From a virus, in IMG/VR virus record IMGVR_UViG_3300029922_000230, positions 1 to 30,641 of that record: DNA of 30,641 nucleotides; one strand, given 5' to 3'. The notes beneath the pieces are model-generated. The model did no database searches and was not told where the DNA came from. It saw only the letters and a program-made list of their open reading frames with translations. This document shows positions 1 through 30,641 of this stretch, in pieces (within the stretch, counting starts at the first letter, position 1; each line of letters starts with the position of its first letter). The position numbers and the translations under genes were made by a program.

Positions 1-612
1 TTGAGTAGTAGCTGTCGTGGCTGAACCCGCCGCCGCTGTCGCTGACGTAGCCGCCGCTGAAGCTGAGCCCGCCGCCGCTGTCGCTGAAGCCCCGGCGCCT
101 GACGCCGCCGTCGCCGATGCAGCGGCATTGGTCGCTGAAGTAGAGGCGTTGCTAGCTTGAGTAGTAGCTGTCGTGGCCGAACCCGCCGCCGCTGTCGCTG
201 ACGTAGCCGCCGCTGTTGCAGAGGTGGAGGCGTTACCAGCAGAGGTGGAGGCGTTACCAGCAGAGGTAGAGGCGTTGCCCGCCTGCGTCGTCGCTGTCGT
301 GGCTGAACCCGCTGCCGTTGTAGCGGAACCCGCTGCCGTTGTAGCGGAACCAGCTGCCGCTGTAGCGGAACCCGCTGCCGCTGTCGCTGACGTAGCCGCT
401 GCTGCTCCTGAAGCGCCGGCCGCCAATGCCGACGTTGCCGACGCGGCGGCATTCGTCGCCGAAGTGGCGGCGGCAGTCGCCGACGCGGCGGCATTACCCG
501 CTTGTGTCGTCGCGATTCCAGCCTCGGTCGTCGCTGTCGCCGCAGCCGTCAAGGTCGAGGCGATCGTCGCAGTAAGCGTCGGCGAGGGATTTATTTGAAG
601 AATGACCGACAT
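1..612 (-). CDS. Tail fibre protein, N-terminal part (runs off left edge)
   Basis: The reading frame starts with ATG at 612-610 and stays open to the window edge, giving 204 visible residues; the C-terminus is missing. A Shine-Dalgarno-like AGGA sits 7 bases before the ATG. After a short start ([20 protein letters not shown]) almost the whole visible protein is Ala/Ser/Thr/Gly with a seven-residue rhythm such as GNASTSA and GSATTAA. Low-complexity heptads like these are typical of lambda Stf-type side tail fibres, where they form a long trimeric shaft, so the receptor-binding part should lie beyond the window. The opposite strand is also open (173-598), but this is a by-product of the repeats; the minus strand has the start signal and matches the direction of all neighbours. 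The tail fibre call rests on composition and context, not on a recognised domain. Confidence 0.75.
219..388. repeat. Tandem 21-bp repeats in the tail fibre gene
   Basis: Three near-identical 21-bp units cover 219-281 and four more of a second type cover 305-388. Each unit is exactly seven codons, so copy number can change without breaking the frame. A longer direct repeat also exists: bases 1-59 match 157-215 almost perfectly, a shift of 156 bp (52 codons). Slippage or recombination between these repeats would change fibre length. Confidence 0.85.
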
Positions 613-660: not shown

Positions 661-2496
661 TCAAGCTCGCCATTTTCCAGATTGAAGAGTCACAATACAG
701 CGCTTTCCATTGGCGTATTGCAGAACGTGCGACACGGCCCAGCCCGAAGGCCCGAGATTGTAGCCGTGCTGAAGATTCATCGCGCCCGCGCCATAGACTC
801 CCTCGTTGATGGAAGGACTATGCTTGTCGCCGATCGACATCTTACGGCCCATCTTGGCGTAACCGGAGACCGTACCTTGAGCGCCATTAGCGCCGCGAAA
901 GCCGTGATGTCCACACTCGATATCATCGACAAGAAAGCTTTCACCGTCATAGGCCCATTCAACGTGATCGATCAGACTCCCCATGATCTCACGAAGGGCG
1001 TTTTCCAGGAGAGCGAACTTCTTTGGCGCCTTATAAGCGTCAAGCTCCTTCGCGACGTGTTCGCGATGCTCGACCATTTCCCCTTCGAGCCAGAGACCGA
1101 ACTTTAGGTTGACGCCATCATTGCGATAGCGACCTTCCTTGATGTAGCGCCCGAGCGCGAGATCGTGGTTCGACTCGACTTCGATAATACGTAGACCAGG
1201 GCGTCTCAGAAGCGATAGAAAGCTCCCTAGGGACGCGATCTCGCTCTTGATGCATGTTCGACCTCGCATCGCGAGTTCGAAGCTAGCGTGCCCGTCACCG
1301 GCCCTGTGATGATTGCCGATTTCTTGATCGTGACCGTCGTGAATAAAAATAAGTTCCGGAGCCAGATCATCTAGCATGGAGTAACCAACCTTGACGTCGC
1401 GCTTAATATCAACGCCGAACGCGGCGACCGTGTTGGCGGGATCAAGCTTGGCGCGATGAAGATCCGCGAAGACGATCGACTTGACGTGATGACCGACGCT
1501 TATGACGCCATTCGCGACGTAGCGATCCAACTCGTAGAAGCTGCCATCCTTCTCGGCGTTGATCTGGCGGCAGAAGATATCGCCTTCGTGATCGAACTCG
1601 ACCAGCGTCGCGCCGATGACATGATGAAAGATGCTCTTTACGCCAGCCTTGCGGGCGATCACCTTGGGCCTTGTCACGGAGCCCGATGTCATGACCTGAT
1701 GAGCCTGGCGTTTCGGGTCCGTGGTCGGAACGCTTTCGAGCGCGAGTTTGGCGTGAGGAAATACTGCCCAACGACCGCGGCTATAGGTCGTGAGATCCGA
1801 GATCGGCTTCGAGGCGGTAGGAAGAGTGTTCATCTCGCCGCAGAAAACGAAGTTGTCGCCGATCGCCAGCTGACCGAAGCAAAGGTGATTTGTAAGAAGT
1901 GGATCATAGGAGCGCGACACCGGGTTATTCTCGCTCCACCACTGGGTCTCGTATGTCCAGGGTCCGACGACGATCTCGGCATCTATGAATTTCGCGAAGG
2001 CTTGAAGGTTCACCCAGAAAGATTGATCGACGATGGCGTCATTCTGAGCGCCTGTGAAAAGGAATTTCCTGTTCCGACAGTCCTCGATAGGCGCAACGCG
2101 CAGCGTATCGGTGATCCAAGTGCGAGGTGTTCCTTCGACATCCTTATATCGACCAGAAGCGCGGTCGTATCGCTCGGAGAGATAGCTATCGACCATAAGC
2201 GATTCTGGATTGATGATCGGGTATTTCGAGCGGCTCAATAGCGCGTCGATCTCACCCTTGAGACGATTCGCGCGAGCCTTGGCGTGATCGACGGGCTTCG
2301 GCTCGACGGGAAGCGCAGCCTCGCGCTTGCGAGTAATAATCAGTAGCCTATCGTTACGATAGATCGCCGATCGATTAATGACCGTCTTCCGGGATATCTT
2401 GAGCTTCTTCGCCACGTCAGCGATCAGAGGATATTTCTTCGTATCGTTGTAGATGGCGATGAAGTCGGTCGAGTCCGGAAGAGTCCTATGTGTCAT
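661..2496 (-). CDS. HTH plus metallophosphoesterase protein, phage T5 A1-like
   Basis: A 611-residue protein. Residues about 22-50 look like a helix-turn-helix (LIADVAKKLKISRKTVINRS). The C-terminal half carries the ordered motifs of a calcineurin-like metallophosphoesterase: D345-x-H347 (FADLH), a Gly-Asp region degenerate as HDGHD (387-390), SNHD (442-445), paired histidines at 530-531 followed by Gly-rich turns, and IGDKHSP (555-561) where relatives usually have a GHTHSP-like site. From memory, this arrangement and the ending YANGKR...GKWR resemble phage T5 A1 and related DNA-transfer proteins; T5 A1 is needed for second-step DNA entry and host DNA breakdown. Here it lies between the spanins and a tail fibre, in late territory. 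It has its own upstream 33-bp element (2526-2558). The start lacks a clear ribosome site, and a 19-codon reading frame overlaps it. The phosphoesterase fold is fairly sure; the A1 role is inferred. Confidence 0.72.
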   Translation of the reverse strand: MTHRTLPDSTDFIAIYNDTKKYPLIADVAKKLKISRKTVINRSAIYRNDRLLIITRKREAALPVEPKPVDHAKARANRLKGEIDALLSRSKYPIINPESLMVDSYLSERYDRASGRYKDVEGTPRTWITDTLRVAPIEDCRNRKFLFTGAQNDAIVDQSFWVNLQAFAKFIDAEIVVGPWTYETQWWSENNPVSRSYDPLLTNHLCFGQLAIGDNFVFCGEMNTLPTASKPISDLTTYSRGRWAVFPHAKLALESVPTTDPKRQAHQVMTSGSVTRPKVIARKAGVKSIFHHVIGATLVEFDHEGDIFCRQINAEKDGSFYELDRYVANGVISVGHHVKSIVFADLHRAKLDPANTVAAFGVDIKRDVKVGYSMLDDLAPELIFIHDGHDQEIGNHHRAGDGHASFELAMRGRTCIKSEIASLGSFLSLLRRPGLRIIEVESNHDLALGRYIKEGRYRNDGVNLKFGLWLEGEMVEHREHVAKELDAYKAPKKFALLENALREIMGSLIDHVEWAYDGESFLVDDIECGHHGFRGANGAQGTVSGYAKMGRKMSIGDKHSPSINEGVYGAGAMNLQHGYNLGPSGWAVSHVLQYANGKRCIVTLQSGKWRA

Positions 2497-2545
2497 GTGC
2501 TCTGTTTCTGCGTTGGAAAGCGAACTCCCAAGTCCGCTCTCTCAT
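2486..2545 (-). other. Possible 19-codon leader ORF overlapping the next gene's start
   Basis: An ATG inside the 33-bp element opens a 19-codon frame beginning MRERTWE and ending in TAG at 2488-2486, overlapping the start of the metallophosphoesterase gene (2496) by 11 bases in another frame. The other two element copies also read MRARTWE from their ATG. No Shine-Dalgarno is seen. It may be a translated leader used for coupling, or chance. Confidence 0.25.
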
Positions 2546-2558
2546 ATATTACTTACTA
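2526..2558 (-). promoter_or_regulatory. 33-bp shared element (copy B), putative phage promoter
   Basis: Read on the minus strand it contains the cores ATATGAGAG and GGACTTGGGA, preceded by GTAA-type tetranucleotides. It matches the element at 30524-30556 at 31 of 33 positions and lies 29 bases upstream of the metallophosphoesterase ATG. The AT-rich upstream part and the fixed orientation toward the gene suggest a promoter, but no convincing sigma-70 -35/-10 pair is visible. Confidence 0.5.
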
Positions 2559-2589
2559 GATAAATACATACTTACTTATATAGCGGTAA

Positions 2590-28510: not shown

Positions 28511-29800
28511 TCAACGGGAATATCCAGCCATTTCAACCTTCCGAACCGGAAATTCGATATCCATGGCGTAACCCACGGCGTCGGCGGCGTGCTCGATGTT
28601 CATCGTCTTATCCACATCCCGCGTGCCGGGTTTGTAAATAACCTGCTCGAACGCCGTGATGGTGTGCTTGCAGGAATGGTCGATCCGCATCCGAATGGTG
28701 CCGTCGGCCGACTTGAACATTCGGTTCACCGCGTTCACGCGATCGGCGACCTTGGGCGCCTTCCGACGATACTTTAGCCTAATGAAGCCGGCCTCTCGCA
28801 TAATGTCGAAGTCGGATTCGCCGTGCTGATGACCTCGCTGCGTGCCGGCTGGGTCGGGATAGACCGTGACCGATTTCATCTGCCTGAATAGCAGCTCGCC
28901 GAGCTTGTCGGACGCCTCCTGGGTGTTCGAGCCGAAGATGACCGACTCGTTCACGATCCAGATTTCGCCGTTTTCCTGCGGCTGCATGATGACCGAGGTC
29001 ATCGGGTCGATGTTGAAATCCTGCCCGACCCAGATCGGCAGTTTCGGATTGAAGGCGTAGTTACCCAGATGAATGTTACGGTCGAAGGCGTGATAGACGC
29101 GACCGCTCATCGACTCGAAGGACGCTTCAAACTCCTGGCGGAACGACTTCTCGTCGAGATCGTGGCGTGCGGCGACGATCTCCTCGGGCGGGATGAATGG
29201 CGAGGTGATGGTCGGGAACTGCCAGGACTTCCAGGGATTAACGACATGAACTCTGCGCTTCGGGTCGTGAAAGGTGTCGCCTCGCTGGCCGAGCATGTAG
29301 ACGTCATAGAGCCAGTTGAAGGATTTGGGCGTGCCGATGATCAGGGCTTCGCCGCGGGTGGACGCGAGCGTCGGCCGCAGAATCTTGTACCAAGTGTCTT
29401 CCCGAATGTTCTGAGCCTCATCGATCACAACGAGATGCAATCCTACCCCACGAAGCGTATCGGGCTTGTCAGCCCCCTTACACTCGATTCTAGTCTTGTT
29501 TACGAGCGTGATGATCATCAGCGTCTCGTCCGCCTTCGCGATGAGACCGCGGGGGATCGATTCCAGCAGCTCGAGCCACATAATGCCGCGCGCCATTCGA
29601 TAGGTCGGCGCGACGTACCAGATCAATCGCCTCGGCTTCTTCGAGGCTTTAATGATCGCGCTCTTGGCGCTTTGCGTCTTTCCCCAGCGTCGGCCGGCGA
29701 CGATCACCTTGAATCGGTGTCGATCGTCGATGACCTTGCGTTGACCAGAATGCACCGTGAGAGTCTTGCGAACCCTGGCGCCTAACGCGAGCGTGCTCAT
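28511..29800 (-). CDS. terL: Terminase large subunit
   Basis: 429 residues. The ATPase domain shows Walker A AGRRWGKT (35-42), Walker B LVVIDE (123-128) followed by AQ, and the coupling motif IIGTP (154-158). The C-terminal RNase H-like nuclease has D261 in GQDFNIDP, a second Asp in YPDPAG and the final HAADAVGYAMD. It drives ATP-dependent DNA packaging through the portal and cuts concatemers. The start overlaps the small terminase stop by four bases (ATGA). All key residues are present. Confidence 0.95.
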   Translation of the reverse strand: MSTLALGARVRKTLTVHSGQRKVIDDRHRFKVIVAGRRWGKTQSAKSAIIKASKKPRRLIWYVAPTYRMARGIMWLELLESIPRGLIAKADETLMIITLVNKTRIECKGADKPDTLRGVGLHLVVIDEAQNIREDTWYKILRPTLASTRGEALIIGTPKSFNWLYDVYMLGQRGDTFHDPKRRVHVVNPWKSWQFPTITSPFIPPEEIVAARHDLDEKSFRQEFEASFESMSGRVYHAFDRNIHLGNYAFNPKLPIWVGQDFNIDPMTSVIMQPQENGEIWIVNESVIFGSNTQEASDKLGELLFRQMKSVTVYPDPAGTQRGHQHGESDFDIMREAGFIRLKYRRKAPKVADRVNAVNRMFKSADGTIRMRIDHSCKHTITAFEQVIYKPGTRDVDKTMNIEHAADAVGYAMDIEFPVRKVEMAGYSR

Positions 29801-30429
29801 TCGACCACGACATCGTCATCCGCGTCCAGCGGGGCCAGCGGATCGAAATCCATGGCCTTGCCCTGCTGAAGGTTGATGATTTCCTCGTCGCTCAGGTCGC
29901 GGATGACGATCTCGGGCAGTTCGTCAGTCGCGATATGATCGTCCATCGCCAGATTTTCACGCATTCCGGTGTTGGCGATCTGGAATTGACGCGCCAGAAG
30001 CATCGCTTCCTTCTCGGAAAGTGGGTCCGTCACCTTGTTCGCCAGCGCGGTAGCGGATTCCCGGAACTTCATGACGGCGCGTTGACCCATGATCCGGAAG
30101 CCCTGATTGGCGAAACCCTTCCATTCTTCGATCCGCTGAAGGCGTTGTTCGGCGAAAGACGAAGCCCTTGCCGCGGCGACGGCGTTGGCCGCGGCGGCTT
30201 CCGCTTCTTTCCGAATACGTCGAACCTCGCCGCGAGTGAGGTTCATGGCCCGGAACATCTGACTGAAATGCTGAGCCGTGCGATCGTACTTGCGCGCGAT
30301 GTCGGCGATGGAGATGCCTTCACCGAAAAGTTCGACAGCATCCTGCTTCTCCTCCGAGGTCATCGGAGGCTTTTTCGTTGCGCCAGGAACTTCCTCTTCC
30401 AATTCCGGAAGCTCGATTTCTTCAGACAT
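29797..30429 (-). CDS. terS: Terminase small subunit
   Basis: 210 residues. An acidic N-terminus precedes a helix-turn-helix at about 28-62 (AVELFGEGISIADIARKYDR, then the recognition-helix-like TAQHFSQMFRAM), followed by a basic Ala-rich helix (RRIRKEAEAAAANAVAAARA) suited to ring oligomerisation, and an acidic C-terminus (DADDDVVVE) that may contact the large subunit. It recognises the packaging site and loads the large subunit. A 41-base leader separates the start from the 33-bp element, with one degenerate palindrome in it. Identity rests on HTH architecture and the ATGA overlap with terL. Confidence 0.82.
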   Translation of the reverse strand: MSEEIELPELEEEVPGATKKPPMTSEEKQDAVELFGEGISIADIARKYDRTAQHFSQMFRAMNLTRGEVRRIRKEAEAAAANAVAAARASSFAEQRLQRIEEWKGFANQGFRIMGQRAVMKFRESATALANKVTDPLSEKEAMLLARQFQIANTGMRENLAMDDHIATDELPEIVIRDLSDEEIINLQQGKAMDFDPLAPLDADDDVVVE

Positions 30430-30436
30430 AACGTTC

Positions 30437-30452
30437 CATTCAAAAGTGACTT
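30437..30452. promoter_or_regulatory. Intergenic palindrome, degenerate copy in the terS leader
   Basis: CATTCA-AAAG-TGACTT keeps one complete arm and the TCA-N4-TGA core. It lies eight bases upstream of the terS ATG, partly over its ribosome site. Confidence 0.45.
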
Positions 30453-30470
30453 ATCGTTCTCCGGAGAGGA

Positions 30471-30500
30471 TTCCCAAGTCCTTGCTCTCATATCTTACTA
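30471..30500 (-). promoter_or_regulatory. 33-bp shared element (copy C) upstream of terS
   Basis: Minus-strand cores ATATGAGAG and GGACTTGGGAA, preceded by AT-rich GTAA/GATA tetranucleotides, point toward terS. The orientation relative to the gene is the same as for the copy at 2526-2558. Likely a promoter or terminase recognition element; no clear sigma-70 boxes are seen. Confidence 0.5.
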
Positions 30501-30557
30501 CTAATTACTATTAGATAGATAGATAGTAAGTAAGATATGAGAGCGCGGACTTGGGAA
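30471..30557. repeat. Long inverted repeat next to the terminase genes
   Basis: The arms 30471-30499 and 30529-30557 are inverted copies matching at 27 of 29 positions. The 29-base centre holds its own small palindrome (CTAAT-TACT-ATTAG, 30501-30514) and GATA repeats (30513-30524). A 10-bp palindrome TCTCCGGAGA lies just outside at 30458-30467. The structure could be a pair of opposed promoters, a DNA cruciform for packaging or regulation, or an RNase III-type hairpin in RNA. Confidence 0.75.
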
Positions 30558-30641
30558 TTAGATTTCCAAAGCCTGCTGCGGCGGCTTGAAACGACGATAA
30601 GCTGCGGGGGTTGGCTTCACGTAACCTTTGCGGCCTTGAAC
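30558..30641 (-). CDS. C-terminal end of an unknown gene (runs off right edge)
   Basis: The minus strand is open from the window edge to a TAA at 30560-30558, giving 27 residues including GRKGYVKPTPAAYRRFK and ending in QQALEI. The stop abuts the right arm of the inverted repeat. A competing plus-strand frame starts at the ATG at 30537 inside that arm (MRARTWELDFQ...) and is also open to the edge; I favour the minus frame for its composition and its agreement with all other genes. Too little is visible to name a product. Confidence 0.42.
   Translation of the reverse strand, partial: VQGRKGYVKPTPAAYRRFKPPQQALEI

Follow-up and report, generated by a model that had tools for sequence, protein, structure and literature searches.

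A dyad-symmetric inverted repeat upstream of the small terminase gene and its recurrence at module starts in phage-plasmids of the RHEph10 and SSU5 group

Several described phage systems resemble the locus presented here. The nutL and nutR sites of lambda, with their boxB elements and the N protein, occur as several copies at operon starts that are alike within a phage and differ between relatives. In lambda cosB, the R sites around the IHF site make up a pair of separated recognition arms, placed immediately before terS. P1 parS is a two-arm site with an AT-rich middle in a phage-plasmid, and N15 has dispersed copies of its centromere. In T5, the left terminal repeat carries an injection stop signal together with A1, inverted repeats are present and the terminal repeats are long. 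The repeat that we describe shares these respective features, including an A1 relative, but departs from each system. The boxB hairpins are about 15 nt long and keep their local pairing, whereas the arms here are 20-35 nt long and some copies no longer pair. Unlike cosB, the site occurs in two or three copies per genome, in a group with long terminal repeats and not cohesive ends. The arms are much longer than those of P1 parS and N15, and the partition pair of RHEph10 resembles type Ib ParA/ParG. In contrast to T5, A1 and the strongest repeat would lie outside the terminal repeat as we place it below. No prior description of the repeat was found in the open-access papers searched.

The window, meaning the whole stretch of DNA analysed here, is a 30.6-kb record (30,641 nucleotides) that encodes terminase, portal, capsid, tape measure, a J-like tail protein, lysis genes and an A1-like protein. 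It is part of a phage of about 115 kb from the phage-plasmid group of RHEph10 and SSU5; its TerL is 63% identical to that of Rhizobium phage RHEph10 and 56% to that of Salmonella phage SSU5. Several bacterial hosts harbour phage-plasmids of this group with resistance genes, and the control of their lytic modules is poorly known. RHEph10 encodes ParA, ParB-like proteins and RepC, SSU5 encodes ParA- and ParB-like proteins, and the contig next to the window has a ParA-like gene on the upstream side of terS. A bacterial contig of Faunimonas pinastri has the size of a whole group genome (109,453 bases) and encodes a TerL with 71% identity, which agrees with a phage-plasmid life. The 215,656-base contig IMGVR_UViG_3300046694_000296 (L044, L046), with two terL copies 106.6 kb apart, is apparently a head-to-tail genome dimer. 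The genes around the repeat upstream of terS, hereafter site 1, are all on the minus strand, and the features of this end of the window are as follows.

28511 to 29800, minus strand: terL, 429 aa, phrog_2
29797 to 30429, minus strand: terS, 210 aa, putative HTH DNA-binding, phrog_867
30437 to 30452, minus strand: AAGTCA-N4-TGACTT-like palindrome between site 1 and terS, 2 mismatches
30470 to 30499, minus strand: site 1 inner arm, on the terS side, minus-strand sequence AGTAAGATATGAGAGCAAGGACTTGGGAAT
30500 to 30528, no strand: site 1 core, 29 nt, AT-rich, with GATA units and a TAATTA palindrome
30529 to 30558, plus strand: outer arm of site 1, AGTAAGATATGAGAGCGCGGACTTGGGAAT, whose last base touches the stop codon of the upstream gene
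30558 to 30641, minus strand: 3' end of the neighbouring upstream gene, which reads in the same direction, 97 aa in L004, phrog_900, E = 3e-9

The two arms of site 1 (30470-30499 and 30529-30558) are 30 nt each, with 28 complementary positions, and lie 29 nt apart. A sequence-only reading of this DNA had described 29-bp arms with 27 matches at 30471-30557 around GATA repeats and a small palindrome; the arms are in fact slightly longer, and both core elements are present (TAGATAGATAGATAG and TAATTA). The minus-strand gene that it had placed at 30558, with the reservation that it be real, is supported by a 97-aa open reading frame in the near-identical strains L004 and L005, which have more minus-strand genes further upstream; its stop codon is at 30558-30560. 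Near-identical strains have a loop with one GATA unit fewer than the window and both arms intact. No other inverted repeat of the window comes close to site 1 (score 24, next 14), while 60 dinucleotide shuffles of the whole window reached at most 16, confirming that the repeat is real and far beyond chance. The folding energy of its single strand is -52.5 kcal/mol for RNA (z = -11.2) and -29.9 kcal/mol for DNA (z = -10.7).

The same reading had described one long inverted repeat beside terS. The strength of the structure stands, but an arm that is repeated along the genome and co-varies is invisible by eye. Relative to terS, the further copies lie at +27 to +34.5 kb (site 2) and at -13 to -15 kb (site 3). 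Site 2 of the window, a copy of the outer arm, is intergenic, 14 nt before the A1-like gene.

661 to 2496, minus strand: gene for a T5 A1-like DNA transfer protein, 611 aa, phrog_1745
2510 to 2558, minus strand: site 2, second arm copy, 49 nt, 88% identity to 30524-30572
2571 to 2587, plus strand: site 2, putative degenerate partner arm, judged by eye, CTTACTTATATAGCGGT

Most of the genomes tested have a copy of their own arm close to A1, or at the corresponding position if A1 is missing. This was observed before A1 or at its place in RHEph10, RHph_N1_15, B1VFA and SSU5, at site 2 of a close RHEph10 relative, and at site 2 of five IMG/VR genomes, with 96-100% identity over 20-25 nt. In SSU5, the entire 57-bp repeat recurs at 33,458. 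Seven genomes have a site 3 copy 13.2-14.8 kb upstream of terS. A BLAST scan with the own repeat did not reveal site 3 in G010 and G028, the arm before A1 was not seen in the phage of L009, and site 3 of the window's phage was not found within the 15.1 kb upstream of terS on a 15.3-kb neighbouring contig, whose far end is poor in genes and rich in repeats. BLAST of the genomes with their own repeats gave no further GC-containing copies of comparable strength.

Some other features were seen near these places. At 14100-15140 of L194, the contig end upstream of terS is gene-poor and repeat-rich, with repeated ATATGTCACA motifs, and may lie near a genome end. The gene after A1 contains coding repeats with a 21-nt period (window 2-495); its product has 648 aa in L006 and is weakly tail-fibre-like. 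For the A1-like proteins of G003, G004, G005, G021 and G029 (L101-L105), only the N-terminal HTH-like part was matched (residues 7-50, or 8-106 in G021, in frames that are 377-468 aa long), which looks as though the C-terminal portion had been swapped.

Among relatives, the intergenic repeat upstream of terS is usually kept with a quite different arm sequence. An inverted repeat with a score of at least 12 was found there in 40 of 74 relatives, compared with 13 of 400 random windows, and such repeats also occur in the named hosts Faunimonas, Methylocystis and Kluyvera. The copies within a genome nevertheless stay alike: the genome's own site 1 was the best match of its site 2 in nine of nine genomes (two tie with a sister) and of its site 3 in seven of seven. 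As sites 2 and 3 were first located by similarity to site 1, the weight of these counts lies in the conserved places despite unlike arms. The sites precede genes that start modules, and the genes after site 3 are homologous in three genomes.

From the AT-rich core outward, each arm runs through a phage-specific block into a partly conserved outer block. The outer block is of the type GGNYY(N)GGA, a pattern chosen after looking at the arms, in 11-12 of 19 non-redundant arms, compared with fewer than one in shuffles. Symmetry is nearly always highest at site 1; sites 2 and 3 may have a degenerate arm on one side, and the site 2 arm extends into the first codons of A1 in some genomes. RHEph10 and B1VFA keep the identity of the site 2 arm to site 1 but have lost its local partner, which implies that the sequence itself is read, whether by a protein or by an RNA that pairs with it. 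Changes that affect the two arms symmetrically, at site 3 of G024 and between PhiR41_1 and SSU5, indicate that the dyad is important as well. Directly observed are the repeats and where they lie, the concerted divergence of the copies, and the arm identity that outlasts local pairing. A simple directional promoter was rejected, since sites 2 and 3 can have their best-kept arm in either orientation.

Repeats at module starts, with asymmetric halves, a symmetric whole and joint rewriting, are best explained by one trans-acting phage factor. We therefore lean, tentatively and from sequence comparison, towards a dyad-symmetric site that would be bound by a phage-encoded DNA-binding factor controlling module starts. 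The repeat upstream of terS would be the best-preserved copy of a cis-acting site of which a genome has up to three, each copy consisting of two inverted half-sites of about 25 nt that flank an AT-rich core. A phage-encoded factor of changing specificity would bind the half-sites across the bendable core. From site 1 it would control the late operon (terS, terL, portal, capsid and tail), from site 2 the genome end with A1, PhoH and DnaB, and from site 3 the region with few genes that lies about 14 kb upstream of terS. The protein reader, its transcriptional effect and the identity of the protein are what we infer here; no regulator gene was linked to the changes in arm sequence. Further points against this reading are that site 1 has no recognisable promoter, that the preserved arm of sites 2 and 3 occurs in either orientation, and that site 3 or the arm before A1 was not seen in the genomes named above. 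That places and symmetry are kept while all copies are rewritten together points to a single, strong trans-acting factor. A broader proposal, which we consider doubtful, is that recognition of this kind extends across the SSU5/RHEph10-type group: as many as three dyad sites, lying where modules start, might be rewritten together with their reader and provide specificity, in the sense of immunity or compatibility, between co-resident phage-plasmids.

The alternative that fares best, though we consider it rather unlikely, operates at the level of RNA. The hairpin of site 1 would be an antitermination or processing signal as in lambda nut, or the transcript would pair in trans with sites 2 and 3, as in P4-like immunity. 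The very stable fold of site 1 fits such a role, and the large RNA hairpin that the sequence-only reading had listed is physically possible. Pairing is conserved though the sequence diverges, the changes between PhiR41_1 and SSU5 are compensatory, and several copies stand at module starts, as the nut sites do at operon starts. A hairpin at each copy, as in nut, is however not what we found: it is broken at site 2 of RHEph10 and B1VFA, which argues against a local hairpin signal. Pairing in trans needs only arm identity, the very feature that is kept. The conservation of part of the outer block across phages and the absence of any Rfam family match also speak against an RNA signal.

A hairpin beside terS can be misread as a packaging site, and a packaging site at the repeat had been listed as one possibility from the sequence alone. 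TerS would read the arms as separated R sites are read in lambda cosB, and terminase would start there; this we regard as unlikely. Site 1 is next to terS on its upstream side, where a TerS site, like a cos or pac site, is usually located, and TerS has an HTH match, albeit a weak one under Pfam's cut-off. The group, however, has long direct terminal repeats. A terminal repeat of 3,605 bp was determined for B1VFA by PhageTerm and one of 3,939 bp for V1VFA-S from read mapping (PMC12509600), and Nican01 was classed as 'DTR (long)' (PMC11256456). When B1VFA and V1VFA-S are aligned, the 334-bp difference is best matched by a repeat that starts at about 39.6-39.8 kb and stops at about 43.2-43.4 kb of B1VFA, where the net difference is 335; placements with 344 and 321 fit less well. 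This position is deduced from two published lengths and not mapped. The terminal repeat of B1VFA would then lie 11-15 kb from terS, and terS is probably not a genome end. Site 3 of B1VFA would be about 0.3 kb inside the left end so placed, a point in favour of packaging, but each genome has two or three sites where a cos or pac site would be single, and two of them are far from the deduced ends. The start of the Nickie record was dropped as evidence of a terminus, its first gene being unlike the B1VFA gene at the deduced boundary.

The contig ends of 53 fragments from relatives do not cluster at site 1, which makes a genome end there improbable; with the long terminal repeats of relatives, such an end is left unsupported. 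The deposited linear record of SSU5 (L091/L092, JQ965645) was opened inside the loop of site 1, a point in favour of packaging, but the Kluyvera contig L171 reads through the SSU5 junction without a break, so the opening point of the record may be arbitrary. The TerS N-termini of the window and L009 differ widely, yet their arms share a TGAGAG..GCGGA core; as a test of TerS as the reader, this alignment is mildly adverse and not decisive. TerS might nevertheless recognise a site that lies some way from the ends.

A role in partition or replication, as for P1 parS or the dispersed N15 centromeres, appears quite unlikely. It would suit the phage-plasmid lifestyle with ParA, ParB-like proteins and RepC, as well as the two-arm layout and the dispersed sites. 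However, ParA of RHEph10 is paired with a small ParG-like protein, and known relatives of ParG-like proteins use direct repeats upstream of parA. Moreover, the extremes of cumulative GC skew do not coincide with the sites.

We give still less credence to a plain bidirectional terminator or insulator between operons, with copies kept alike by gene conversion. Such an element would account for a strong hairpin between co-directional operons, but site 1 is not an intrinsic terminator, as no T-tract follows the stem, the hairpin is not kept at every site, and a terminator has no need of identity between sites. Simple divergent promoters had already been thought unlikely because the rightward arm would fire antisense into the upstream gene, and we agree: no sigma-70-like promoter site was found at site 1, and the upstream gene is co-directional. 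A protelomerase site of the N15 telRL type does not fit a 29-nt core in a whole that is not palindromic through its centre, and a MITE or other mobile repeat, for which varied insertion places are expected, does not agree with the conserved positions across genomes with different arms.

A second, shorter motif was observed in the window and in relatives. The palindrome AAGTCA-N4-TGACTT, with up to two mismatches, occurs 0-67 nt before the starts of minus-strand genes, and its 16-mers in the window are at 641, 4589, 5261, 14011, 21528, 24505, 25476, 28485 and 30437. The genome of each relative has about 20-37 copies, compared with 1-6 in shuffles, and the palindrome is possibly the promoter or operator of many genes.
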